A DNA stretch of 37,530 nucleotides from the NCBI GenBank assembly GCA_013297655.1, contig JAAFHV010000064.1:1-37530 (forward strand). Reading direction: 5' to 3'. The stretch is from Myxococcales bacterium. Lineage in GTDB: Bacteria; Myxococcota_A; Polyangia; Polyangiales; Polyangiaceae. Under the pieces are notes generated by a model that did no database searches, was not told the origin of the DNA, and saw only the letters and a list, made by a program, of their open reading frames with translations. The translations under genes were made by a program, and so were the position numbers. Below are positions 5,142-36,637 of this stretch, piece after piece (position 1 is the first letter of the stretch; each line of letters begins with the position of its first letter).

Positions 5142-5430
5142 GCGTTCCTTCGTCAGATCCGAGCCATTCCCGCGAAGCTGCGAGCCTCACTGGTCTACCC
5201 CGCGGCCGAGACGCGTGCCACACCTTAACGGCGCGACACCTTCACTTTTTGACGCAGTTGGCACCTCTCGGTGCGCAGATGTACACCTATGCACGTAGGC
5301 ACGAAGGCACGGAGGGGACGCCGCGGGCCGCCCTCTCGTGCTCCGCGACCCATCGTGAACAGCGAGCTCTACGGGGGATGATCGGCCGGACGAGGACCAC
5401 GCTTGGCTCGACGCTTGCTCGAATGGCCCC
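5142..5430. promoter_or_regulatory. Divergent intergenic region between lipoprotein run and sulfatase-fold gene
   Basis: 289 bp between divergent starts, so it must hold promoters for both directions. Visible items are a TTGACG at about 5249, a small hairpin GCACC-TCTC-GGTGC at 5261-5274, and three 8-bp imperfect direct repeats (GCACGTAG, GCACGAAG, GCACGGAG) at 5291-5314 that could bind a regulator. No promoter can be assigned firmly. Confidence 0.3.
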
Positions 5431-6783
5431 ATGTCGCTTCGCCTCGTGATGGCGGTCTCGCTCGCTCTGCTCGGATGTGGCGCGCAACGCCGCGACCCCG
5501 CACGTGCGAGCGCGATTCGTGCGGTCGAGGACCGCGGCGATCCTGCCGTGGCGCCGCGTTTCGCACCGGATCCGAAGCTCGTGGCGGGCGTGTCGGCGAC
5601 GAGCGACACCGAAGAGGCCCCGCTGTCCGTGCTCCTCGTCACGATCGATTCGCTCCGCGCCGACATGCCGTGGGCGGGGTACCCGCGCGAGATCGCCCCC
5701 CGCCTCACCGAGCTCGAGCGGCGTTGCGTGACCTACGAGCGCGCCTACGCCACCGCTTCGCATACCGCGCCGAGTGTGGCGTCGATCCTCTATGGCAAGT
5801 ATCCCTCGGAGCTCCCGCGCGACGGGGCCTTCTCTGCGGTGTATCCAAAGTCGCTCGAGGGGTTTCCGCACGCCCTCCGATCGGCGGGATACACCGTGGT
5901 CGCCGGCCACGCACACGACTACCTACGCCGCGCCGGGTTCGCCTCCGGCTTCGACTCGTATGCCCTCGTCCCTGGTCTCCGCCCGGCGCCGAACGTCGAC
6001 CCGAATCAAACGTCGAAGGCACTCGAGGCGCTCGCCGAGACACAACTGGACGCCCTCGATTCAGGGGAAAAGAAGCCGTTCTTCGCCTGGTACCATTTCG
6101 TCGACCCCCACGCGGAGTGGCTCGCCCCGGCCAAAGACGAGGAGGTGCCGGACTTCGGTCCGAAGCCGCGCGATCGTTACGATGCCGAGGTTTATGTCAC
6201 GGACAAGTACGTCGGGAAGCTGCTCGACTACATGGAAGACAAGGGCATGCTCGCGCGCACGGCGATCGTGGTCACGAGCGACCATGGCGAAGGCATAGGG
6301 GATCACGGCCAGCTCTTTCACGGATACGAAACATGGGAGAGCCTGGTGCACGTCCCGCTCTTCGTGTGCATTCCCGGGGTCGCGCCTCGGCGTGTCACCA
6401 CCCCGCGGAGCCTCGTCGATCTCGCCCCCACCATCCTCGAGCTCGCGCACGTGGAGAAGAGCTCCGATTTCCGTGGGACCTCCCTTGTCGCGGAGGTGCG
6501 AGGAGCCAACGCCCCCGCGCGCCCCGTGCTCGTCGATCTCCCTGCAAACGAGCTGTCGTTCGCGCGGCGCGCGCTCGTGGGGGAGAAGCTGAAGGTCGTT
6601 TACATCGGGGAATCTCGCCGTCGCCTCGTATACGACCTCGAGAACGATCCGGCCGAGCTTCACCCGATTCGCTCCGGGCCGCTCTGGGAAGAAGAGACAC
6701 GCAAGCTCCGCGAGGTGGAGAGCACGCTCCGTGAGGTGGTGCCTTCACGCTGCGCCCGAGGCTGCGCCCGAGGTTGGGACTGA
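5431..6783 (+). CDS. Sulfatase / alkaline-phosphatase-superfamily lipoprotein with Thr at the nucleophile position
   Basis: 450 aa. ATG 5431 opens a short signal peptide with lipobox LLGC (Cys16). The rest is an alkaline phosphatase-superfamily (sulfatase/phosphoglycerol transferase-like) domain: metal ligand Asp73 in LLVTIDSLRAD, the active-site turn SHTAPSVASILYGKYPSE at 110-127, metal ligands TSDHGEGIGDHG (Asp284, His285) and His297. In true sulfatases the turn is C/S-x-P-S-R, with the Cys or Ser converted to formylglycine; here it is T112-A-P-S-V, so formylglycine cannot form. Thr nucleophiles occur in phosphoethanolamine/phosphoglycerol transferase relatives, making a phospho-transferase or phosphatase possible. 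The C-terminus (RCARGCARGWD) is unusual and lies in a 123-bp tandem duplication. Confidence 0.82.
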   Translation: MSLRLVMAVSLALLGCGAQRRDPARASAIRAVEDRGDPAVAPRFAPDPKLVAGVSATSDTEEAPLSVLLVTIDSLRADMPWAGYPREIAPRLTELERRCVTYERAYATASHTAPSVASILYGKYPSELPRDGAFSAVYPKSLEGFPHALRSAGYTVVAGHAHDYLRRAGFASGFDSYALVPGLRPAPNVDPNQTSKALEALAETQLDALDSGEKKPFFAWYHFVDPHAEWLAPAKDEEVPDFGPKPRDRYDAEVYVTDKYVGKLLDYMEDKGMLARTAIVVTSDHGEGIGDHGQLFHGYETWESLVHVPLFVCIPGVAPRRVTTPRSLVDLAPTILELAHVEKSSDFRGTSLVAEVRGANAPARPVLVDLPANELSFARRALVGEKLKVVYIGESRRRLVYDLENDPAELHPIRSGPLWEEETRKLREVESTLREVVPSRCARGCARGWD

Positions 6784-27201: not shown

Positions 27202-28623
27202 ATGGGTGAAGCCGCGGTCGTTCGCAGGCGTGGGAGAGTGGTCCTCGTGGAAGACGATCCGCACGTGCGGTTCGGCGTCGCGATGGCGTTGAAGAGCGCG
27301 GGATACGAGGTCTTCGAGGCCGAGACGTGCGCCGACGCGTTGAAGCGCGTCCGCGAGACGAGCCCCGACGTGATCGTGGCCGATCTGCGGCTCCCCGACG
27401 GGAACGCGCTCGATCTGCTGCCCCGTTTGCGCGGCGTCGATCCGAGCGTGCAAATGCTGCTCATGACCGGCTACGGCACCATCGACATGGCCGTCGCGGC
27501 GGTGAAACAAGGGGCGGAGGATTTCCTCACGAAGCCCGTCGATCTCGGGCGCCTCGTCGGTCTCGTCCGCGCGGCGACCGAGAAGCGCGGGCTCATGCGC
27601 ACGTCGTCCAAGCTGCGCGCGTACACCGAGCTCGAGTCGCTCTCGCCCGCGATGCAGCGCCTGGAGGACCAGGTGGAGCGCCTGCGTCAGTCCGACCACA
27701 CGGTGCTCATCCTCGGCGAGACCGGCACCGGGAAGAGCGTGCTCGCGCGTCGGATTCACGAGATCGGGCTTCGCGCGCGGAACCCCTTCGTCGACATCAA
27801 CTGCGCCGGCCTCACCCGCGATCTCGTCGAGAGCGAGCTGTTCGGCCACGAGCGGGGCGCCTTCACGGGAGCACACGCGCAGAAGGCGGGCCTCTTCGAC
27901 GCGGCGAACACCGGCACGCTCTTCCTCGACGAAATCGGCGACATCGACATGCTCGTGCAGCCGAAGATCTTGAAGGTCTTGGAGGACCGTCGCTTCCGCC
28001 GTGTCGGCGACGTGCGCGAGCGCGAGGTCGACGTGAGGCTCGTCTGCGCGACCCACCACGACCTGCTCGCGGCCGTGGCGGAGCGTTCGTTCCGGGCCGA
28101 TCTTTACTACCGCATCAGCACCGTGACGCTCTACATGCCGGCCCTCCGCGAGCGCCCGGAAGACATCGTCCCGCTCTCGCGCCATCTCCTCGCGCAGCAG
28201 TCCGGGGTCGAGGTCGATCTATCTCCGGGGGCGCAGCAGCGCCTGCTCTCGTACGCGTTCCCGGGAAACATCCGCGAGCTCAAGAACGTGCTCGATCGCG
28301 CGCTCCTGCTCCGCCGCGGCTCCGAGATTCGCGAGGAAGACATCGTGCTCGACGGGAGCGCCATGGCCGTGTCGTCGACCCGCCTGGTCGCGCAAGCGCC
28401 GGTCTCTTCGGTGCGCTTCCTCGGCTCGGACGCGAGCACCGCCACCCGCGAGGAGGTCGAGCGCCAGCACATCGAGATGGCCCTCGAAGCCGAGAACGGA
28501 AAGGTCGAAGCGGCGGCCAAGCGCCTCGGCATGCCCCGCAGCACGCTCTATCAAAAAATCAAAGAGTATCGAATGGTTGCGGGGCGTGCGCACGGCACAC
28601 GACGCGCCGACTCGGACATCTAG
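27202..28623 (+). CDS. NtrC-family sigma-54-dependent response regulator
   Basis: 473 aa. ATG 27202. Receiver domain 12-125 with acidic pocket (VEDD), phosphoacceptor Asp61 (VADLRLPDG), and Lys111. AAA+ domain about 145-375: Walker A GETGTGKS (172-179), the sigma-54 contact loop GAFTGA (219-224), Walker B TLFLDEIGD (239-247), and arginine-finger region (SFRADLYYRIS). The C-terminal Fis-type HTH is KVEAAAKRLGMPRSTLYQKI. All features needed to open sigma-54 promoters are intact. It is convergent with, and likely the partner of, the LOV-like histidine kinase at 28677-30560. The sigma-54-type promoters and palindromic enhancer at 34802-34991 are the best candidate targets in this window. Confidence 0.95.
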   Translation: MGEAAVVRRRGRVVLVEDDPHVRFGVAMALKSAGYEVFEAETCADALKRVRETSPDVIVADLRLPDGNALDLLPRLRGVDPSVQMLLMTGYGTIDMAVAAVKQGAEDFLTKPVDLGRLVGLVRAATEKRGLMRTSSKLRAYTELESLSPAMQRLEDQVERLRQSDHTVLILGETGTGKSVLARRIHEIGLRARNPFVDINCAGLTRDLVESELFGHERGAFTGAHAQKAGLFDAANTGTLFLDEIGDIDMLVQPKILKVLEDRRFRRVGDVREREVDVRLVCATHHDLLAAVAERSFRADLYYRISTVTLYMPALRERPEDIVPLSRHLLAQQSGVEVDLSPGAQQRLLSYAFPGNIRELKNVLDRALLLRRGSEIREEDIVLDGSAMAVSSTRLVAQAPVSSVRFLGSDASTATREEVERQHIEMALEAENGKVEAAAKRLGMPRSTLYQKIKEYRMVAGRAHGTRRADSDI

Positions 28624-28679
28624 AGCGCCGGACGCTCAACGAGCGAAAAGCCGACCGAATCAAGCGGTTCGGTGCTCTA
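28621..28679. terminator. Shared bidirectional terminator candidate
   Basis: The 53-bp gap between the convergent regulator and kinase genes has inverted sequence on several scales: TAGAGC/GCTCTA at its ends, including both stop codons; GAGCG-CCGGA-CGCTC at the left; and ACCGAA (28654-28659) with TTCGGT (28668-28673). No T-run follows, so factor-independent termination is uncertain. Confidence 0.4.
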
Positions 28680-30560
28680 GGGTTTCACCCGATCGAACGC
28701 GGGCACGAGCGAGCGCGTGTCTTGGATGGGGACGAGCATTGTGAACGTGGTCACGCCGCGGCCGGAGGACACCTCGATCCGGCCTCCGTTTTCGCTGACG
28801 AGCTGCTGAGCGATCGAGAGCCCGAGGCCGGTGCCCGAAGCCTTCGTCGTGAAGAACGGGTCGAAGATGCGCGGCAGGTCGGTCGCCGAGATTCCCAGGC
28901 CCGAGTCGCTGACCTCGAAGCGTACCATCGGGACCGTGACCGGGACCGACGCGCGGGGGCGCTCCGAGTCCGGCGCGCGCGGAGCGTGGACCTTCAGCCA
29001 CACGCCGGCCGTCGATCCGACCGCGTCGAGCGCGTTGTCGAGGAGCACCACGAGCGCCTGCACGATTTGGCCATCGTCGACGAACACGCTCGGGAGGTCG
29101 GGATCCATCTCGACGCGCAGTTGCTCGCCGCCGATGAGCCTCGGGGAGAGCGTCGTGAGCGCAGCCGAGCACACGATCCAGGGGCGGTGCGACGCGCGCT
29201 TGGGGACGTCGGGGCGCCCGAAGCGCAGCGAAGACCTGACGAGCCTCTCCATCCGCTCGAGCACGCGCAGCATACGGCCCGCGTGCGGCAACATGAGCCC
29301 AGCCTGGGTGAGCTCCTCGCCGAGCTCCTCCGCGATCGAGCGCAGCGCAGCGACGGGGTTCCTCACCTCGTGCGCGAAGCCCGCGACCATCGTCCCGAGC
29401 GCGGCGAGCCTCTCGAAGCGCCGGTGCTCTTCGGCGCGTTGGCGTTCCTCGCGCGAGTCGCGAAAAATGAAGAAGAAGCCGATGTTCATCTCGACCCGGC
29501 CGTCGGCGCGGCTGAGCGCGATGTCGAGCTCCACCTCCGGTCCGTCCGGAGTCACGACCGTGTGGCGCGCGGTCCATCGCGACTCGCCGCAGAGGAGCGC
29601 GTCGGGGAGGCAAGGTAGATGCAGCACGTCGGACACGTGCGCGCCGGGAGCGATCGCGGGGTTCGCGAGCAAGCTCGTCGCGCAGCGGTTCGCGAAGAGG
29701 ATCTGGCCCTCGCGATCGGTCGTGATGATGCCCACGTCGATCCCGTCCAAGATCGCCTGGTCGAAGGTGCGCTGGTCGGCGAGCCTCTGGTAAAGGGAGG
29801 CGACCTCGGCCTGCGCGTCGGCGAGGTTCGTGACGTCGTGGTGCACGCCGCCCATCCACCCCGTGGGCGACCCGTTTACGGTGATCGGGAACACCGTGAC
29901 CTCGTTCCAGAACGCCGAGCCGTCCTTGCGGTAATTGCGGACGACGGCGGTCGCGTGCGCATGGCGCCGGAGCGCGTCGCCGAGTGCGAGGGCTCCCGCT
30001 TGGCCTACGTCGTCGCGCTGGAGGAGGCGGCACGTCTGCCCCAGTATCTCGCGCTCGTCGTACTGAGTGAGGCGCTCCAAACCACGAGAAACGCTCACGA
30101 TTGGGACGTTGGGGAGCGAAGCGTCGGCGATCGCGAGGCCAGTGACGGACTGCTGGAGGGCCTGCTCGGCGACCAAGAGAGAGAGGCGCGCGCGGCCTAG
30201 CTCGATGCACTGGCGGAGGCGCCGTTCGGCGGTTCGGAGGGCATCGCGAGGGAGCACGAGCACCTCGTCGGCGCGCACCCCGTCGATCGCGTCTTCCCCG
30301 AGCGCCCGATCCGAGACGAGGACGAGGGGAGCGGGGGGCGGCTCCATCGACGTGCGCCACGACACGACGTCGTCGAACGGCACGCCACGAAGATCGATGA
30401 CGACCGTCGTCGTCGTCGGCGTGATGGCGTCGAGTGAGCGCGCTCCGAGCCGCTCGATCGTCACAGATCCGAGAGACATCTCCGCGAGCTCCGGCAACGG
30501 ACCGACCACCACCACGGCGGACGAGAGAAAGTCCCCGAACGGTGCGTTCGCGCGGGTCAT
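28677..30560 (-). CDS. Histidine kinase with LOV-like PAS sensor domain
   Basis: 627 aa. ATG 30560 overlaps the stop of the upstream GTPase gene (ATGA). Residues 1-125 resemble a degenerate receiver fold. Residues about 138-250 are strikingly LOV-like: IADASLPNVPIV, LTQYDEREILGQTCRLLQ with the photoadduct-type Cys177, NYRKDGSAFWNEV with flavin-contacting Asn209 and Asn219, and WMGGVHHDVT where the usual Gln is His240. A second PAS covers about 265-365. The kinase core has H-box FAHEVRNPVAALRS (His397), N-box VVLLDNALDAVGS, G1 SDSGLGIS and G2 GTGLGLSIAQQL, all intact and of the NtrB type. No membrane segment is seen, so it is cytoplasmic. Its likely partner is the convergent NtrC-type regulator. 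Light or redox sensing is inference. Confidence 0.92.
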   Translation of the reverse strand: MTRANAPFGDFLSSAVVVVGPLPELAEMSLGSVTIERLGARSLDAITPTTTTVVIDLRGVPFDDVVSWRTSMEPPPAPLVLVSDRALGEDAIDGVRADEVLVLPRDALRTAERRLRQCIELGRARLSLLVAEQALQQSVTGLAIADASLPNVPIVSVSRGLERLTQYDEREILGQTCRLLQRDDVGQAGALALGDALRRHAHATAVVRNYRKDGSAFWNEVTVFPITVNGSPTGWMGGVHHDVTNLADAQAEVASLYQRLADQRTFDQAILDGIDVGIITTDREGQILFANRCATSLLANPAIAPGAHVSDVLHLPCLPDALLCGESRWTARHTVVTPDGPEVELDIALSRADGRVEMNIGFFFIFRDSREERQRAEEHRRFERLAALGTMVAGFAHEVRNPVAALRSIAEELGEELTQAGLMLPHAGRMLRVLERMERLVRSSLRFGRPDVPKRASHRPWIVCSAALTTLSPRLIGGEQLRVEMDPDLPSVFVDDGQIVQALVVLLDNALDAVGSTAGVWLKVHAPRAPDSERPRASVPVTVPMVRFEVSDSGLGISATDLPRIFDPFFTTKASGTGLGLSIAQQLVSENGGRIEVSSGRGVTTFTMLVPIQDTRSLVPAFDRVKP

Positions 30561-31993
30561 CGCGTGCCGGCTTCGTTCGTGAACGACGCATGGTCGCGCG
30601 CCGCACGCTCCGCGCGGTCGTCCTCCCGTGCGCGCGCGCGCTTGCCTTCACGCTCGAACGCGGAGAGCACGACGCTGGTGTCGTCTTCGTCGAGCTCGCC
30701 GAGCGCCACGCTCAGACCGACCGTCGTCGCGGAGGCCGAGAGCAATGGCCCGAAGTATCGAACGGAGCCGTTTTGAAGCCCGAAAGAGGCGAGGCGAAGG
30801 TCGAAGCCGATGCCGTGTTGGGTCGCGACTCGCATCGCGGTCGCGAGCGCCGTCCCGTACGCCTCGAGGTGCGTTCGCCGCTCCGTGACCGCCGGATCGA
30901 GCGCCGCGGCGAGGTGCGGAATCTCGGGACGCGCCGTCCAGATCCAGACCGCTCCGTCGCGGGACTCCTTCGCGGCGAGCACCGTCCCGTCCACCAAGAG
31001 GCTCTCGATTTGAGTGCACGCGCGCGCCTCCGCGACGAGCGCGGCCTTCGCGGACTCGGCCGTCTCGTACCGGCGCTCAGGGCGCGTCTCGAGCACGAAA
31101 TCGTGTGCGGTATGCACGAATGTGCGACCCGCCGTCGCGCGCGGGCGGGCCTCTCCGAGCCCTCGTTCGGTGAGCCTCCGCAGCACGGCGCGGGCGGTGT
31201 CTGCTGGCCATACGAGGCCGGTCGCGACCGTGTCGTCCGGGAACACGGGGAGGGCGGGGGCCCGCTTCTCGTCGCCTGCGGGCATCTCCTGCGCGGCCGT
31301 GGGCATCTCCTGCGCGGCCGCTCGAAGGTAGAGCTCTGCGACCCCGTCGCGCTCGGCCGGGATCCGCGCGACGACCGCGGTCGTGGCGCCACGCGAAAGC
31401 GGACGGCCTATTTTTACGCGGCGAGAGCCTTCGTGGCGCTCGGAGAGCTCTCGCGAGAGAACACGAACGGCGGCGACGAACGTGTCGACGACCCCGACCC
31501 CGGTGCTCGCGATGGCATCGACCACGTTCGACGGCTCGAGCCCGAGCGCGCGTGCGACCTCGATCGCGGAGACGGCGTCCGGGAGATCTTGGTGGTTCGC
31601 CTGAACGACGACGGGCACGTTCGCCTTGGCGCGCACGCGTGAAAGGTCGGCGCGGAGGGCGTCGAGCTCCGCCGCACGGCTCTGGCAGACGTGCACGACG
31701 ACGTCGGCGTCGCGGAGGATTGCGAGGCGTCGTTCGCGGAACGCGGCGAGCCCCGGCACCGCGACGATTTGACAGAGGAGAGGCATGCCGGCGACGACGC
31801 CCGCGTGGATCTCGAGCCAGTCGAGGCTGAGCGTGCGACCTGCCACCTCGTCCGGCGAGTAGACCTCGGTGTCCTGTGGGCCGGCGAAGAGCCTCGCGAG
31901 GCTCAGCAGGTTCGCCGTCTTGCCGCTGCCCGTCGCGCCGTCGTAGACGACGCGCGCATAGAGGCGATTTTCACGCAGATCGAAGTAGGACAT
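30557..31993 (-). CDS. MglA-like GTPase domain with C-terminal extension
   Basis: 478 aa. ATG 31993. Residues 1-190 resemble the MglA/Ras-like small GTPase family: SYFDLRENRLYARVVYDGAT leads into Walker A GATGSGKT (19-26), then CQIVAVPGLAAFRERRL in the switch II/DTPG region and VVVHVCQS. The guanine-specificity motif is VVVQANHQD where NKxD is expected, so nucleotide preference may be altered. The remaining ~290 residues include an Arg-rich strand region, a WPADTARAVLRRL helix, and a C-terminal domain; its family is not recognised. A 21-bp duplication inside gives AAQEMPTAAQEMP. It overlaps the kinase gene and is 37 bp after the PATAN-like gene. A polarity or motility signalling role is inferred from MglA. 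Confidence 0.82.
   Translation of the reverse strand: MSYFDLRENRLYARVVYDGATGSGKTANLLSLARLFAGPQDTEVYSPDEVAGRTLSLDWLEIHAGVVAGMPLLCQIVAVPGLAAFRERRLAILRDADVVVHVCQSRAAELDALRADLSRVRAKANVPVVVQANHQDLPDAVSAIEVARALGLEPSNVVDAIASTGVGVVDTFVAAVRVLSRELSERHEGSRRVKIGRPLSRGATTAVVARIPAERDGVAELYLRAAAQEMPTAAQEMPAGDEKRAPALPVFPDDTVATGLVWPADTARAVLRRLTERGLGEARPRATAGRTFVHTAHDFVLETRPERRYETAESAKAALVAEARACTQIESLLVDGTVLAAKESRDGAVWIWTARPEIPHLAAALDPAVTERRTHLEAYGTALATAMRVATQHGIGFDLRLASFGLQNGSVRYFGPLLSASATTVGLSVALGELDEDDTSVVLSAFEREGKRARAREDDRAERAARDHASFTNEAGTR
31280..31321. repeat. 21-bp in-frame tandem duplication inside the GTPase gene
   Basis: Two adjacent 21-bp units (31280-31300 and 31301-31321) differ only in their last base. 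They encode the doubled AAQEMP segment in the linker after the GTPase domain. Confidence 0.9.
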
Positions 31994-32030: not shown

Positions 32031-32882
32031 TTAGGGGCGCGCGACTCCTCTCGCCGCCGCGTGGGCGGTGTCCTCGAGCCATCCCTCGCGCGCCTCGCCG
32101 ACGCACACGAGCCCACCGCGGCTCCACGCGACCAGGAAATCGCGCCCTCGCACGCGCACGCACTCTGGCCGGAGCACCCCCAAGATCGCGTCCTTCGCCC
32201 CGAAGACGGACACGACGTCGAGCGCGGAGGCGGCCCATTTTGCGAGCCCGAGCAGGTCGCGTGCGGTCTGCGGGCCGCGCCCTCGGATCGCGATCGGATC
32301 CGGCGTCGCGCGCGATGGTCGCCTCACGAACGCCGCGCCCCACGCCTCTCGAGACAGCCATCGTTCGAGCTCTGCCTCTGCGCCATCCGCGGCGGCGGGA
32401 TCTTCGGTCGCGGACGCGCGGGTGAGCAGCTCGGACGTTCCGAACGTGAACTGAGGGCTGTAGCCGCCGCGCGGACGAGGACGAAACACGGCGCGTCGTC
32501 CACGTCCCGTGAGCGCGAGGAGCGACTCGACGGTGTGCCGCTCGAGCGCCGATCGAAGGTCGCGCGGCTGTACGATCCCCTCGGCGACGAGGAACTCGCC
32601 GAGCGGGCGTCGCTCGGCCTTGCAGCGAAGAAAGATCGCTTCCATCGACTCGCGCGCGACCCCCGTGTGGGCGACGAGCAGCTCGCTCAAGCGACGCGAG
32701 AGACCCGTCGCTGCGGCCCAGCAGATGCGCCCGTCCTCCACGAAGACAGCGCCTCGCGCGTCGTCGCAGTCCACGACGATTTCGCCCGCCGGTCCGTCGA
32801 GGTCGTCCACGAACGTGCACACGTCCGTGACCGACTCGGCAGAGAGGCGCCGCTCGCTGTGCTGCGACGACGGCTCGATCAA
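32031..32882 (-). CDS. PATAN/DUF4388-like protein
   Basis: 283 aa from TTG 32882, chosen because its TTGA overlaps the Roadblock stop, matching the operon's pattern, and a longer start would run into that gene. Residues about 15-130 resemble the DUF4388 (PATAN) domain found with receivers and MglA/Roadblock proteins: VCTFVDDLDGPAGEIVVDCD, GAVFVEDGRICWAAATGLS, LGEFLVAEGIVQPRDLRSAL, HTVESLLALTGRGRRAVFRP. The C-terminal ~110 residues (DLLGLAKWAASALDVVSVFG, FLVAWSRGGLVCVGEAREG) look like a Roadblock/longin-type beta-alpha fold. It probably mediates protein contacts in the GTPase system. The weak start makes the N-terminus approximate. Confidence 0.72.
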   Translation of the reverse strand: MIEPSSQHSERRLSAESVTDVCTFVDDLDGPAGEIVVDCDDARGAVFVEDGRICWAAATGLSRRLSELLVAHTGVARESMEAIFLRCKAERRPLGEFLVAEGIVQPRDLRSALERHTVESLLALTGRGRRAVFRPRPRGGYSPQFTFGTSELLTRASATEDPAAADGAEAELERWLSREAWGAAFVRRPSRATPDPIAIRGRGPQTARDLLGLAKWAASALDVVSVFGAKDAILGVLRPECVRVRGRDFLVAWSRGGLVCVGEAREGWLEDTAHAAARGVARP

Positions 32883-33244
32883 CGGGCTCGCCCGACCTGG
32901 CCGGCGACCTCTCCCAACCACACGCGCAAGGTCGCGATGTTCTCGTTCGAGCGCGCGAGGCCCATGATGATCAGCTCCGGTCGCTCGGGCACGCGCGCAA
33001 ACGCATGTACCCAAGTGTCCGAAATGACGAGAGCTTCTGGCGCGGGGTCGTCGGGTTCGCCGTCGTCACGCGGCGTCTTGGCGAGCTCGGGCGCCGAGAG
33101 CGCGGCGAGCTCCACCTCGTCCGCGTTGGTGTCCCCCTGGATGCACATGCCGAGCACGAGGCCCGCCTCACCGTCCATGCACGCGAGCGCGGCGACCTCT
33201 GGCCGCGCTGCGAGCGCCTCTTTCATCGTCGATTCCAGGCTCAT
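32879..33244 (-). CDS. Roadblock/LC7 domain protein (MglB-like)
   Basis: 121 aa. ATG 33244 with a strong Shine-Dalgarno (GGAGGAG) about 5 bases upstream. It is a single small alpha/beta domain with the Roadblock order: helix (LESTMKEALAARPEV), strands AALACMDGEAGLVLGMCI, a helix with ELAALSAPELA, a second strand set (ALVISDTWVHAFARV, LIIMGLAR) and a final helix NENIATLRVWLGEV. In Myxococcus, MglB is a Roadblock GAP for MglA; here two MglA-like GTPases are encoded next to it, so a similar role is likely. It overlaps the PATAN-like start (TTGA). Confidence 0.85.
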   Translation of the reverse strand: MSLESTMKEALAARPEVAALACMDGEAGLVLGMCIQGDTNADEVELAALSAPELAKTPRDDGEPDDPAPEALVISDTWVHAFARVPERPELIIMGLARSNENIATLRVWLGEVAGQVGRAR

Positions 33245-33320: not shown

Positions 33321-34766
33321 TCAGGTAAACCAGCTCTTCTTCGCCTTCATCGCGACGCCGATCTCCTTCACGCGCTCGCCGATCTCGGTCGCGCGCACTT
33401 CGCTCTTCGTGTCGGCTTCGCTCGTCGCTTCGGCGAGGGAGCGCACGAGGTCCTCCACCTTCGCTACGCGCGCGACGATCGCGGTCCCCACCTCGTCGCG
33501 GAGCGCTCGCTGCACGTCTTTGACCGCCGCGAGCACGGGGACCATCGCGTCCACCTTCGTTCGCATCTCGCCGACGAGTCGGTTCAAATCGGTCACACCG
33601 AGCCGAACGTCGTGCGCCTTCACGTCGATCGAGAGGCCCTCGATCGCCCCCTTGAGCCCCGCGATCGACGAGAGCACGAGCTCGCGATCGGTCCTCGCGC
33701 GGCTCTCGATCGCGCGTCCGAGCTCGGTGCGGAGCTCTTCGTTTTGCCGGTCGAGCTTCGCGGACAGCTCGTCGTGTTGGCGCAGGCTCGCGACGCGGAC
33801 GGCTTCGATCGCGCGCTCCAGGACGCGCGCGTCGCCCACCTTCTCCTCGAGCGCGGAGAGCGCGCCGGCGTGTGCGGCGAGGGCGGTCGCGTGGGTCGCG
33901 AGGCCGCGTAGCGTGTCGTCGGTCCCGTTCGCGACGCGGGCGGAGAGCTCGCGCGCGACGGCTTCCATGGCCTCGGTGCGCTCGCGGAGCTTCGTGATAG
34001 CGGCGTGGGTCTTCGTGGACTCGTCCGCGACTACCTTGCCGAGCGTCGCGAGGGCCTCGGCGTGCGCTCGCGCGAGGCGCTCGTCGAGTCGCGCGGTGAA
34101 GCCCCCTTCGACGCTCGCGGCGTGGCGTGAGATGGCGTCGGCGAGCACGTCTTTCAGCGCGGCGAGGAGGGGGGTCTTCGCTCCGACCTCGGCGCTCTCT
34201 CGTGGGCCGTCGACGGGGAGCTCCTCGAGGCTGACGAGGAGGCCCTCGATGGTGCGCGCGAGGGTCTCGACCACGCCTTCGCCGCGGGTCGCCGAGGCCG
34301 CGAGGTGGGGCCAGCCGATCCCGAGCTCCTCGACGATGGTCGCGGGCATCCGAGACTGGGCGACGTCGGTCTTGTTCACTTGCACGACGACGGGCACCTT
34401 GTCCGACACCAGCGCTTCGCGGACGAGATCGACGAGCGCCCGGTTGCGCGGGCCGGCGTCGGGGCTCGCGTCGAGAACGAGCACGATCGCGTCGGCGTCG
34501 CGCACGAGGGCCGTGGTTCGCTCCGGCGTACCGTCGCAGGGGGCGACCACCTCGACGGAAATAGGGAAGTCGCGGAAGCTCGTCTCCGACTCCCACGCGA
34601 GGGAGAGCACCTCGCCGTCGCCGTGTTTTTGCCGGGAAGTCGCGCGAGCCTTCGGGGTGGCGCGGAGGCCGAGCTGCTCGAGGTTCTTCGCTTTGCCAAC
34701 GCCGAACGGGCCAACGTACGCGATGCGCGTCTCCATCTTCCGCTCGCGCACGTTGAGGTAGGCCAT
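33321..34766 (-). CDS. MglA-like GTPase fused to a long helical (coiled-coil) C-terminus
   Basis: 481 aa. ATG 34766 with AAAGGAGAG about 5 bases upstream. Residues 1-200 resemble an MglA-type GTPase: YLNVRERKMETRIAYVGPFG, P-loop GPFGVGKA (19-26) in which the usual Ser/Thr after Lys is Ala, VVAPCDGTPE near switch II, and guanine motif VVVQVNKTD. The P-loop change would weaken Mg2+ binding and may make it a weak or inactive GTPase. From about 215 to 480 the protein is almost entirely helical, with heptad-like patterns suggesting a long coiled coil, ending in a basic tail. First gene of the minus-strand operon and directly behind the sigma-54-type promoter. It could be a scaffold or localisation factor. 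Confidence 0.85.
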   Translation of the reverse strand: MAYLNVRERKMETRIAYVGPFGVGKAKNLEQLGLRATPKARATSRQKHGDGEVLSLAWESETSFRDFPISVEVVAPCDGTPERTTALVRDADAIVLVLDASPDAGPRNRALVDLVREALVSDKVPVVVQVNKTDVAQSRMPATIVEELGIGWPHLAASATRGEGVVETLARTIEGLLVSLEELPVDGPRESAEVGAKTPLLAALKDVLADAISRHAASVEGGFTARLDERLARAHAEALATLGKVVADESTKTHAAITKLRERTEAMEAVARELSARVANGTDDTLRGLATHATALAAHAGALSALEEKVGDARVLERAIEAVRVASLRQHDELSAKLDRQNEELRTELGRAIESRARTDRELVLSSIAGLKGAIEGLSIDVKAHDVRLGVTDLNRLVGEMRTKVDAMVPVLAAVKDVQRALRDEVGTAIVARVAKVEDLVRSLAEATSEADTKSEVRATEIGERVKEIGVAMKAKKSWFT

Positions 34767-34801
34767 CGTCTCTCCTTTTGCCGCCGAACCCACCGGCTAT
34801 C

Positions 34802-34816
34802 GCAACGCGCGTGCCA
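34802..34816 (-). promoter_or_regulatory. Sigma-54 (-24/-12) promoter for the GTPase/Roadblock/kinase operon
   Basis: On the minus strand the sequence reads TGGCAC-GCGCG-TTGC, a full match to the sigma-54 core (GG and GC separated by 10). With -24 at 34814, the start would be near 34790, leaving a 24-nt leader that contains the Shine-Dalgarno before ATG 34766. The geometry is right, and an activator with an intact GAFTGA loop is encoded in the same island. This is one of the best-supported regulatory calls here, though not experimentally tested. Confidence 0.72.
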
Positions 34817-34856
34817 TCGGCGATTCGCGAACGCTGCGGGGAATCGTGGAGAGGAA

Positions 34857-34925
34857 GTCTGGAAGCTGGACGAACCGCCGTTCGAGATTCGGACGTTCCA
34901 GGTCGCGTCCAGAATCTGGACGAAC
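34857..34925. promoter_or_regulatory. Enhancer-like cluster with 17-bp perfect palindrome
   Basis: CGTCCAGA-A-TCTGGACG at 34906-34922 is a perfect palindrome. CTGGA or TCCAG half sites occur at 34859, 34866, 34897, 34908 and 34916, and CTGGACGAAC is repeated at 34866-34875 and 34916-34925. The palindrome centre is about 124 bp upstream of the predicted minus-strand sigma-54 start and about 88 bp upstream of the plus-strand one, both usual distances for an NtrC-type upstream activating site. The binding protein is inferred. Confidence 0.6.
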
Positions 34926-34975
34926 GGCGCGGCGGAAAAATCGAGGTTCCGCACGCGCAGCGCCCGTTCCGTGGA

Positions 34976-34991
34976 TGGCACGCGCGCTGCA
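34976..34991 (+). promoter_or_regulatory. Divergent sigma-54-like promoter before the receiver-PATAN-Roadblock gene
   Basis: TGGCACG-CGCG-CTGCA keeps GG-N10-GC and matches the consensus except the first T of TTGC. It nearly copies the minus-strand element (TGGCACGCGCG shared). The predicted start near 35002 would leave a leader of only about 6 nt before ATG 35008, and the Shine-Dalgarno (GAGGTGA at 34994-35000) would be upstream of it, which weakens the call. Confidence 0.4.
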
Positions 34992-35007
34992 TTGAGGTGA
35001 ATCCACG

Positions 35008-36231
35008 ATGGCCAACGCACCTCACGTCCGACGCGTCCTCCTCGTCGACGACGAAGAGGCGCTCGTCTGGTCCCTCGCGAGCCGCCTCGCGAAGGTGCGG
35101 CCCCAGTATCAATTCATCACCGCCAACGACGGGACGAGCGCCCTCGCGCTCATGCAGGAAAACCAAGCCGATTTGCTCGTCGCCGACATTCGCATGCCGG
35201 GCATGAGCGGGATCGATCTCGTGCTCGCCGCGCGAAGGGCGCGCCCAGACTTGCCCGTGATCGTGATGACGGCCTTCACGTCGTCGGACGTGCAGCGCCT
35301 CTCCTCGGGGCCGTTCACGGGCTTCCTCGAGAAGCCCTTCGAGTTCGACCGTTTGCTCGAGCTCGTCGACCGCGCGCTCGTCCCTCCTCCACCGCGCGCG
35401 GTGGGGTTCTCGGGCGCGATTTCGGTCCAAACCCTCCCCGACATCGTGCAGCTCTACGTGCTCTCCAGCGCGACGGGCATGCTCTCCATCAAGCACCACG
35501 GCGGGGAGGGGCAGGTCTACTTCGACCGCGGCTCGATCCGTCACGCCGTCACGAACAGCGCGGTCGGCGACGAGGCCTTTTACGAAGTGATGCAGTGGTC
35601 CGGCGGCGAGTTCTCGATGCGTGCCGGAGCGACGACACACGAGGCCTCGATCGTGACGAACTGGCAGGAGCTCCTCATGGAGAGCTGCCGACGAATCGAC
35701 GAGACGCGGCGCGAGGAAGAGCGCCCTTCGCGGACGGGCTGGACCGAAGCCCCGCCCGCGCCCGACCCGCTCGACAACGAGCTGGACACCTTCTTCCAAG
35801 ACTTCGGCCCGAGATCCAAGAGCGATCCCGCGCCGCAAGAAACGCAACGAACGGAATCATTGGAGGCCAAAATGAACATCAAGGACAGTCTTTCTAAGCT
35901 CAACCAGATCGACGGATTCGTGGGCGCGGCGCTCGTCGATTCGGAGAGCGGCATGCTCCTCGGGCAGGAAGGCGGCGGCGGCCTCAACCTGGAGGTCGCG
36001 GCGGCGGGCAACACCGAGGTCGTCAAGGCGAAGCGCAAGACGATGGGAAACCTCGGCCTCAAGGAGACGATCGAGGACATCCTCATCACGTTGGGCAAGC
36101 AGTACCACCTCATCCGCCCGCTCCGTGGCCGTCCGACCCTCTTCTTCTACGTTGCGCTCGATCGCGCCCGTGCGAACCTCGCGATGGCGCGTATCGCGCT
36201 CGCGGACGTCGAAAAGGACCTCGTCGTCTGA
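35008..36231 (+). CDS. Receiver - PATAN/DUF4388 - Roadblock fusion protein
   Basis: 407 aa. ATG 35008 with GAGGTGA about 7 bases upstream. Receiver 8-125: VLLVDDEE, phosphoacceptor Asp60 (VADIRMPGMSG), conserved Thr88 (VIVMTAF) and Lys109 (FLEKPF). PATAN/DUF4388-like 133-235: FSGAISVQTLPDIVQLYVLS, GMLSIKHHGGEGQVYFDRG, WSGGEFSM. A disordered linker (240-288) precedes a Roadblock/LC7 domain (289-407; KLNQIDGFVGAALVDSESG, KETIEDILITLGKQYHLIRP, FFYVALDR). An internal ATG at 35872 (Met289) has its own Shine-Dalgarno, so a separate Roadblock protein may also be made. Divergent from the GTPase operon. It probably links phosphorelay input to the MglA-like GTPases. Confidence 0.9.
   Translation: MANAPHVRRVLLVDDEEALVWSLASRLAKVRPQYQFITANDGTSALALMQENQADLLVADIRMPGMSGIDLVLAARRARPDLPVIVMTAFTSSDVQRLSSGPFTGFLEKPFEFDRLLELVDRALVPPPPRAVGFSGAISVQTLPDIVQLYVLSSATGMLSIKHHGGEGQVYFDRGSIRHAVTNSAVGDEAFYEVMQWSGGEFSMRAGATTHEASIVTNWQELLMESCRRIDETRREEERPSRTGWTEAPPAPDPLDNELDTFFQDFGPRSKSDPAPQETQRTESLEAKMNIKDSLSKLNQIDGFVGAALVDSESGMLLGQEGGGGLNLEVAAAGNTEVVKAKRKTMGNLGLKETIEDILITLGKQYHLIRPLRGRPTLFFYVALDRARANLAMARIALADVEKDLVV
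35862..35874 (+). promoter_or_regulatory. Internal ribosome-binding site and start for a free Roadblock protein
   Basis: GGAGG at 35862-35866 lies five bases before ATG 35872, exactly at the beginning of the Roadblock domain (MNIKDSLSKLNQ). It is a better initiation signal than many in this window. If used, it yields a 119-aa Roadblock protein ending at 36231, from the same frame as the fusion. Confidence 0.55.
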
Positions 36232-36295: not shown

Positions 36296-36637
36296 ATGAT
36301 TGCGAAGCGTTCGCTCTTCGCGCTCGCGAAGGGGCTCGAGGGCGTGCCGATCTTGGGCGCGCTCGGAGGAACCTCGGCGGCGCGGGCAGGCCTTCGTTAC
36401 GGAGACGTCCTCCTCGAAGTAAACGGGAGGAGGACGCGATCGATTGAGGAATACATCGAAGCGAAGGACCTCAGGCAGGGTGGGATGAGCGTCGTCGTGT
36501 TCCGCGCGGGCGAGCAGATCGCGCTCGACTTCACGTACTCGGGGGGCCCCGTAGAGCCGACCAGTTTCGTGAGCGAGCTCGTCTCGATGCGCGTGGGCAC
36601 GCAAGATGAGGGGCCCGACCCCACCGGGACGGCCTGA
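36296..36637 (+). CDS. Small stand-alone PDZ-domain protein
   Basis: 113 aa. ATG 36296, about 9 bases after a GAGGAGAGG ribosome site. After a short helix, residues about 20-85 form a PDZ domain of the bacterial protease type: LGGTSAARAGLRYGDVLLEVNGRRTRSIEEY, then MSVVVFRAGEQIALDFTY. There is no signal peptide, protease domain or membrane segment, so it is probably a cytoplasmic peptide-binding adaptor. It follows the receiver-PATAN-Roadblock gene by 64 bp on the same strand, and likely belongs to the same transcript and signalling group. The partner is unknown. Confidence 0.78.
   Translation: MIAKRSLFALAKGLEGVPILGALGGTSAARAGLRYGDVLLEVNGRRTRSIEEYIEAKDLRQGGMSVVVFRAGEQIALDFTYSGGPVEPTSFVSELVSMRVGTQDEGPDPTGTA

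Follow-up and report, generated by a model that had tools for sequence, protein, structure and literature searches.

The locus considered here raises the question of whether two gene groups that diverge from one short intergenic region, encoding Ras-like GTPases and a histidine kinase on one side and a Roadblock-containing response regulator on the other, are switched on together by sigma-54 RNA polymerase and, if so, by which activator. The genes lie in a 37,530-nucleotide (nt) stretch of a Myxococcales bacterium, a myxobacterium of the order Polyangiales (GenBank assembly GCA_013297655.1, contig JAAFHV010000064.1), referred to below as the window, which is a single contig (C508) of a 9.9-Mb draft genome (G000). 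Control of sigma-54 promoters by NtrC-type activators is known, and the interval 34766–35008 (241 bp) is, with high probability on sequence grounds, a divergent control region of this kind. Its features are as follows:

34802–34816, minus strand: -24/-12 element TGGCACGCGCGTTGC (TGGCACG-CGCG-TTGC-G), predicted to drive the minus operon
34976–34991, plus strand: -24/-12 element TGGCACGCGCGCTGCA (TGGCACG-CGCG-CTGC-A), predicted to drive the response regulator-DUF4388-Roadblock gene
34906–34922, no strand: putative upstream activator site, the 17-bp perfect palindrome CGTCCAGAATCTGGACG, with its GTCC-N7-GGAC core at 34907–34921; the repeat type also occurs in relatives
34880–34894, no strand: putative second activator site GTTCGAGATTCGGAC, centred 27 bp from the first
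34857–34871, no strand: possible weak third activator site GTCTGGAAGCTGGAC, an inverted-repeat match
34993–34995, plus strand: in-frame TGA just upstream of the ATG at 35008

The two elements put forward by an earlier, sequence-only reading of the window (34816–34802 on the minus strand and 34976–34991 on the plus strand) are present base for base. Scored against the consensus TGGCACG-N4-TTGCW (12 positions, including GG-N10-GC), each reached 11/12 with GG-N10-GC kept, and a score of at least 10/12 was found at only 4 places in the whole window, both elements included. The minus transcript would start at 34790, with a leader of about 24 nt containing AAGGAG, and the plus transcript near 35002, with a leader of about 6 nt. 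Dinucleotide shuffling of the 241-bp intergenic region, repeated 20,000 times, never produced a divergent pair with so high a score, whether or not an intervening GTCC-N7-GGAC was required; nine other regions subjected to the same test were at or near this floor, the weakest being that of genome G098 (p 0.002 for the promoter pair). The strict minus pattern TGGCACGN4TTGC is rare without being enriched genome-wide, with 4 occurrences in the 9.9 Mb, the minus element among them, against 7 for the reversed control (controls for pattern counts were simple reversals of the searched pattern).

Conservation was evaluated in 11 homologous divergent regions, the one in the window and the rest from ten other genomes. 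The relatives carrying the island, as the locus is called here, are Polyangiaceae, Labilithrix and other Myxococcales or Deltaproteobacteria assemblies, mostly drafts or metagenome assemblies, and count as non-independent samples. All 11 regions carry an outward-facing minus element on the GTPase side and a plus element on the response-regulator side, each scoring at least 9/12. When the regions were aligned on the elements, the information per fixed column was 1.52 bits for the plus element, compared with 0.18 bits in the 20 bases before it, and 1.33 bits for the minus element, compared with 0.13 bits; the N4 spacers vary. The 3' ends tend to CTGCA in the plus elements and read TTGC in 11/11 minus elements. 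The first GTPase is only about 30–43% identical between genomes, so that shared descent alone would hardly preserve the elements amid unconserved DNA, and G096 keeps the promoter pair with no GTPase match in the stretch examined. A check for relatives that retain the genes and have lost the elements found none among the 11 divergent regions, one genome being from another family. The elements and their conservation are, in this sense, established directly.

The earlier reading had placed a shared palindromic enhancer between the elements. The 17-bp palindrome and the five CTGGA/TCCAG half sites around it are confirmed in the sequence, and its recomputed distances to the predicted starts equal those first given (124 bp to the minus start and 88 bp to the plus start, from the palindrome centre). 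The palindrome is the best of its set, and it belongs to a pair or trio of sites. The relatives likewise present two or three GTCC-N7-GGAC inverted repeats between the elements, 20–27 bp apart, with centres 72–136 bp from the minus and 74–198 bp from the plus predicted start; paired inverted repeats about 70–200 bp upstream, as used by NtrC-type activators, are found here. The repeats of G098, read by eye from the sequence, are N8 versions.

The genes on both sides, together with the activator gene, are the following:

35008–36231, plus strand: response regulator-DUF4388 (PATAN)-Roadblock/LC7 protein of 407 amino acids (aa); Pfam Response_reg 1e-20 and DUF4388 7e-19, Roadblock by AlphaFold model
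36296–36637, plus strand: PDZ-domain protein, the conserved next gene by synteny; Pfam PDZ_6 1.5e-8
33321–34766, minus strand: GTP1, an MglA-like GTPase (phmmer to MglA 3t12, E 3e-8) whose P-loop is degenerate (GKA) and whose C-terminal tail is long
32879–33244, minus strand: small Roadblock-like candidate of weak fold assignment, in conserved synteny
32031–32882, minus strand: DUF4388 (PATAN)-like protein with an uncertain start codon; Pfam DUF4388 8.8e-7
30557–31993, minus strand: GTP2, an MglA-family GTPase with an intact P-loop, GSGKT; phmmer to MglA 5ymx, E 4e-17
28677–30560, minus strand: histidine kinase with a PAS domain, encoded at the end of the minus operon; HATPase_c 6e-19, HisKA 6e-7, PAS
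27202–28623, plus strand: NtrC-type enhancer-binding protein, the probable activator by synteny, convergent with the kinase gene; Sigma54_activat 7e-64, Response_reg, HTH_8, GAFTGA

The product of 27202–28623 has the receiver domain, the AAA+ sigma-54 domain with GAFTGA and the Fis-type helix-turn-helix (HTH) that had been ascribed to it, and is most likely the activator of both elements, a choice drawn from synteny. An NtrC-type gene stands beside the island in most genomes, with varying position and strand: it is convergent with the kinase in the window, G136, G101 and G096; behind the kinase on the same strand in G008, G099 and one G001 copy; and beyond the plus genes in G061, G087 and the other G001 copy. 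Its recognition helix, G[MI]PRSTLYQKIK, is nearly constant in most genomes. An activator with receiver, GAFTGA-bearing AAA+ and HTH domains is therefore both nearby and conserved together with the island, and its staying with the island in most genomes supports NtrC as the activator.

Further support was obtained from the rest of the genome, where a search for the perfect repeat alone returned 15 places, against 8 for the control. On contig C35 (66967–66981), GTCCAGGAACTGGAC and GTCCAGATTCTGGAT precede a free Roadblock paralogue (64% identical), and on C65 (11811–11825), GTCCAGTATCTGGAC and GTCCGAAATTCGGAC precede a DUF4388 paralogue (46% identical) that is followed by a PAS kinase. At both places, the second repeat lies 21–39 bp from the first and a GG-N10-GC element 51–104 bp downstream. 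The presence of the same repeats before island-type paralogues is the best non-experimental evidence for the repeats being a genuine activator site, and the C35 Roadblock gene and the C65 DUF4388 gene probably form a small regulon with the island. The remaining repeat hits inspected, outside the window, C35 and C65, showed no convincing -24/-12 element or matching gene. Contig C39 of G061, which carries repeats and TGGTACATCGGTTGC, was set aside, its sole similarity to the island proteins being a further NtrC-type gene. Four tandem GTCCA-N5-TGGAC repeats at 2483–2589 of contig C378 of G018 (L090), three of them 22 bp apart, are accompanied by no sigma-54 element or island-type gene.

The plus promoter had been considered the less certain of the two, owing to its very short leader; the short spacing proved to be conserved and is no weakness. 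Where the start is intact (9/9 orthologues), the first ATG comes 13–18 nt after the -12 C, giving predicted leaders of 2–7 nt, and no ribosome site is conserved in the plus leader among these nine testable orthologues. This count leaves out G008, whose N-terminus is missing in the assembly; at 439–1596 of its contig C329 (L033), the first ~23 residues of the response-regulator part are absent and the promoter is intact, which reflects either a genuine truncation or a fault of the assembly. The G001 plus gene encodes a free Roadblock protein and has a longer leader. In the window, the TGA at 34993–34995 makes the ATG at 35008 the first possible start, so that the short leader is not an annotation error. 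Similar closeness of -12 and ATG was read from the printed sequence in the distant orthologue of G180 and in a paralogue in the window's genome.

The same spacing is widespread in the family. Across 60 family genomes, TGGCACG-N5-TGC followed by ATG at 11–19 nt was found 650 times, against 169 for the reversed control, and followed by ATG at 31–39 nt 253 times, against 161. Among 69 listed sites from three genomes, the spacing was 12–14 nt in 52 and a ribosome-site-like string stood in the spacer in only 16. G000 has 23 further short-spacing sites besides 34976–35010 of the window; 16 of the 20 short-spacing sites retrieved from it are followed by open frames of at least 150 aa, several with lipoprotein-like signal sequences. 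A second case within the window is the element TGGCTCGACGCTTGCT at 5404–5419 (11/12), with an ATG at 5431, 12 nt after the -12 C, that opens a 450-aa sulfatase with a lipoprotein-like start. In a wider phylum sample, the short spacing is present and weaker outside the order. The enriched 12–14 nt spacing suggests a class of leaderless sigma-54 messages in the family, and leaderless translation of the plus mRNA may reasonably be predicted from the spacing. In a search covering part of the literature, no description of myxobacterial leaderless sigma-54 messages was found; this does not prove their absence.

The plus gene presents a second candidate start further downstream:

35862–35874, plus strand: internal ribosome site GGAGG (35862–35866) with the ATG at 35872, opening the Roadblock domain; probable separate start

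A GGAG precedes the Roadblock-domain ATG by a few nt in 10/11 orthologues, in a linker whose protein sequence is unconserved, and its retention had a P of about 1e-4 under synonymous resampling; only 12/115 other internal ATGs are preceded by GGAG. The free Roadblock genes of C35 and G001 begin at the same Met. The gene thus probably makes two products, the fusion and a free Roadblock protein. It is somewhat more probable than its opposite that both modes of initiation act on one mRNA, leaderless initiation giving the fusion protein and Shine-Dalgarno initiation at the internal site adding the free Roadblock protein.

Several observations weigh against the reading of a shared control region served by the adjacent activator. 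The activator gene of the window has no strong -24/-12 element upstream and is convergent with the kinase gene, so that the closed circuit that had been proposed closes only through the kinase. In G008, G099 and one G001 copy, where kinase and activator share a strand, the loop could be fuller. In two more remote homologues, G143 and G428, the plus gene is embedded in a run of genes and the elements are absent. The -24/-12 elements of C35 and C65 are weaker, at only 9/12, and a composite search of ten genomes (repeat, 40–70 bp gap, -24/-12) found the known sites and C65 and was elsewhere near control, for which reason no wider regulon is claimed. The sigma-54 activator domain is matched 85 times in the genome, strongly in about 70 cases. 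Lastly, the string GAGGTGA, which the relatives lack, lies at 34994–35000, upstream of the predicted plus +1, so that a longer transcript could be translated conventionally in the window.

With some 70 activator-domain genes available, another activator could bind the repeats, both elements being true sigma-54 promoters and the adjacent NtrC controlling something else. This alternative, to which the lack of a direct link between the adjacent NtrC and the repeats and the retention of the promoters in G098 without a close NtrC nearby lend some weight, is considered unlikely, given that most genomes retain the NtrC gene next to the island despite its changed position and strand and that its recognition helix hardly varies among genomes with constant repeats. 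In G180, from another family (orthologue 54% identical), the plus element is retained and both the repeat type and the NtrC (37%) are different, as would be expected if repeat and activator change together.

Less probable still is the use of the minus promoter only, with the plus element being something else and the plus gene read from a promoter farther upstream with a normal leader. The predicted 6-nt leader without a ribosome site and the GAGGTGA string would agree with this; it is opposed by the better conservation of the plus element of the two, by the spacing held in all nine orthologues without a conserved ribosome site and by the enrichment of short spacing across the 60 genomes. A chance likeness in GC-rich DNA with a GCGCG-rich spacer, the repeats reflecting base composition, is very improbable: the unenriched strict pattern and the sharing of GGCACGCGCG by both elements speak for it, whereas the shuffles never reached the divergent pair and the 11 regions are conserved despite unconserved flanks and differing spacers, which already contradicts chance.

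The preferred reading is thus of two sigma-54 promoters under the island's own NtrC-type protein. The scheme that we infer, covering start sites, RpoN use, the binding activator, phosphotransfer, and leaderless and internal initiation, would have the minus-operon kinase phosphorylate the activator encoded at 27202–28623, which would then bind the paired GTCC-N7-GGAC repeats and, via looping, switch on RpoN polymerase at the two -24/-12 elements, which face outward. The products of the minus transcript would be the degenerate MglA-like GTPase, the small Roadblock-like candidate, the DUF4388 protein, the MglA-family GTPase with the intact P-loop and the kinase. The plus transcript, nearly leaderless, would give the response regulator-DUF4388-Roadblock protein and the PDZ protein, with free Roadblock protein added from the internal ribosome site.

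The synteny and domain content of the island are likewise read directly: the same genes recur from genome to genome, usually joined by an additional Roadblock-type gene after GTP1. GTP2 combines homology to MglA with an intact P-loop. GTP1 does not fit GxxxxGK[ST] (GPFGVGKA in the window), and its P-loop is altered, in differing ways, in 7/8 genomes compared, making it a probable pseudo-GTPase. Direct sequence searches with the C-terminal domain of the plus protein were weak and gave no proof of Roadblock; its AlphaFold model (confidence score pLDDT 90.8) has the Roadblock fold, matching Myxococcus xanthus MglB and other Roadblock structures with Z 16–17 and a root-mean-square deviation of 1.7–2.2 over 113–115 residues. 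The 32879–33244 protein had no Pfam match and only a weak one to LAMTOR5 (E 0.65). At the contig end, 37280–37530 resembles an rRNA operon leader with several TTGAC boxes; Rfam found no rRNA within the window.

The control region resembles known sigma-54/NtrC-type systems, including divergent promoters with a shared upstream activator site, in its -24/-12 consensus with GG-N10-GC, its paired inverted repeats 70–200 bp upstream and its receiver/AAA+ GAFTGA/Fis HTH activator; it differs in that its targets are Ras-like GTPase and Roadblock genes, that a nearly leaderless plus mRNA is predicted and that regulator and kinase belong to the island. Like the MglA/MglB polarity module of M. xanthus, the island has a GTPase that is MglA-family by sequence and a Roadblock domain matching the MglB fold, but this domain is far from MglB in sequence (16–17% identity), and the degenerate long-tailed GTPase, the DUF4388 proteins and the PAS kinase/NtrC partners are additional. 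Actinobacterial conservons (CvnA kinase, CvnB Roadblock, CvnC and CvnD GTPase) also bring together genes for a kinase, a Roadblock protein and an MglA-type GTPase at a single locus (PMC4316618), as does the island, which differs in having two GTPases, DUF4388 proteins, sigma-54 control and a PAS kinase partnered by NtrC. The four-gene conservon set was not found, with no DUF742 (CvnC-type) match among the island proteins scanned. MglA groups 1 and 5 are placed near PATAN (DUF4388) genes in delta-proteobacteria (Wuichet and Sogaard-Andersen, PMC4316618), as the island GTPase genes are; in the passages considered, these neighbourhoods are variable, and the kinase-NtrC arrangement and promoters of the island are not described. 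GTPase-Roadblock-kinase loci are thus known; the apparent novelty lies in the combination conserved here, in its regulon and in the close spacing between promoter and ATG.

The locus would tie bacterial Ras-like GTPase/Roadblock signalling to an activator-dependent transcription switch, with a control-region footprint strong enough for defining a regulon. The spacing result, in turn, suggests that sigma-54 control is coupled to leaderless translation across a whole bacterial family, a coupling that, if true, would change start-codon and promoter annotation in this family.
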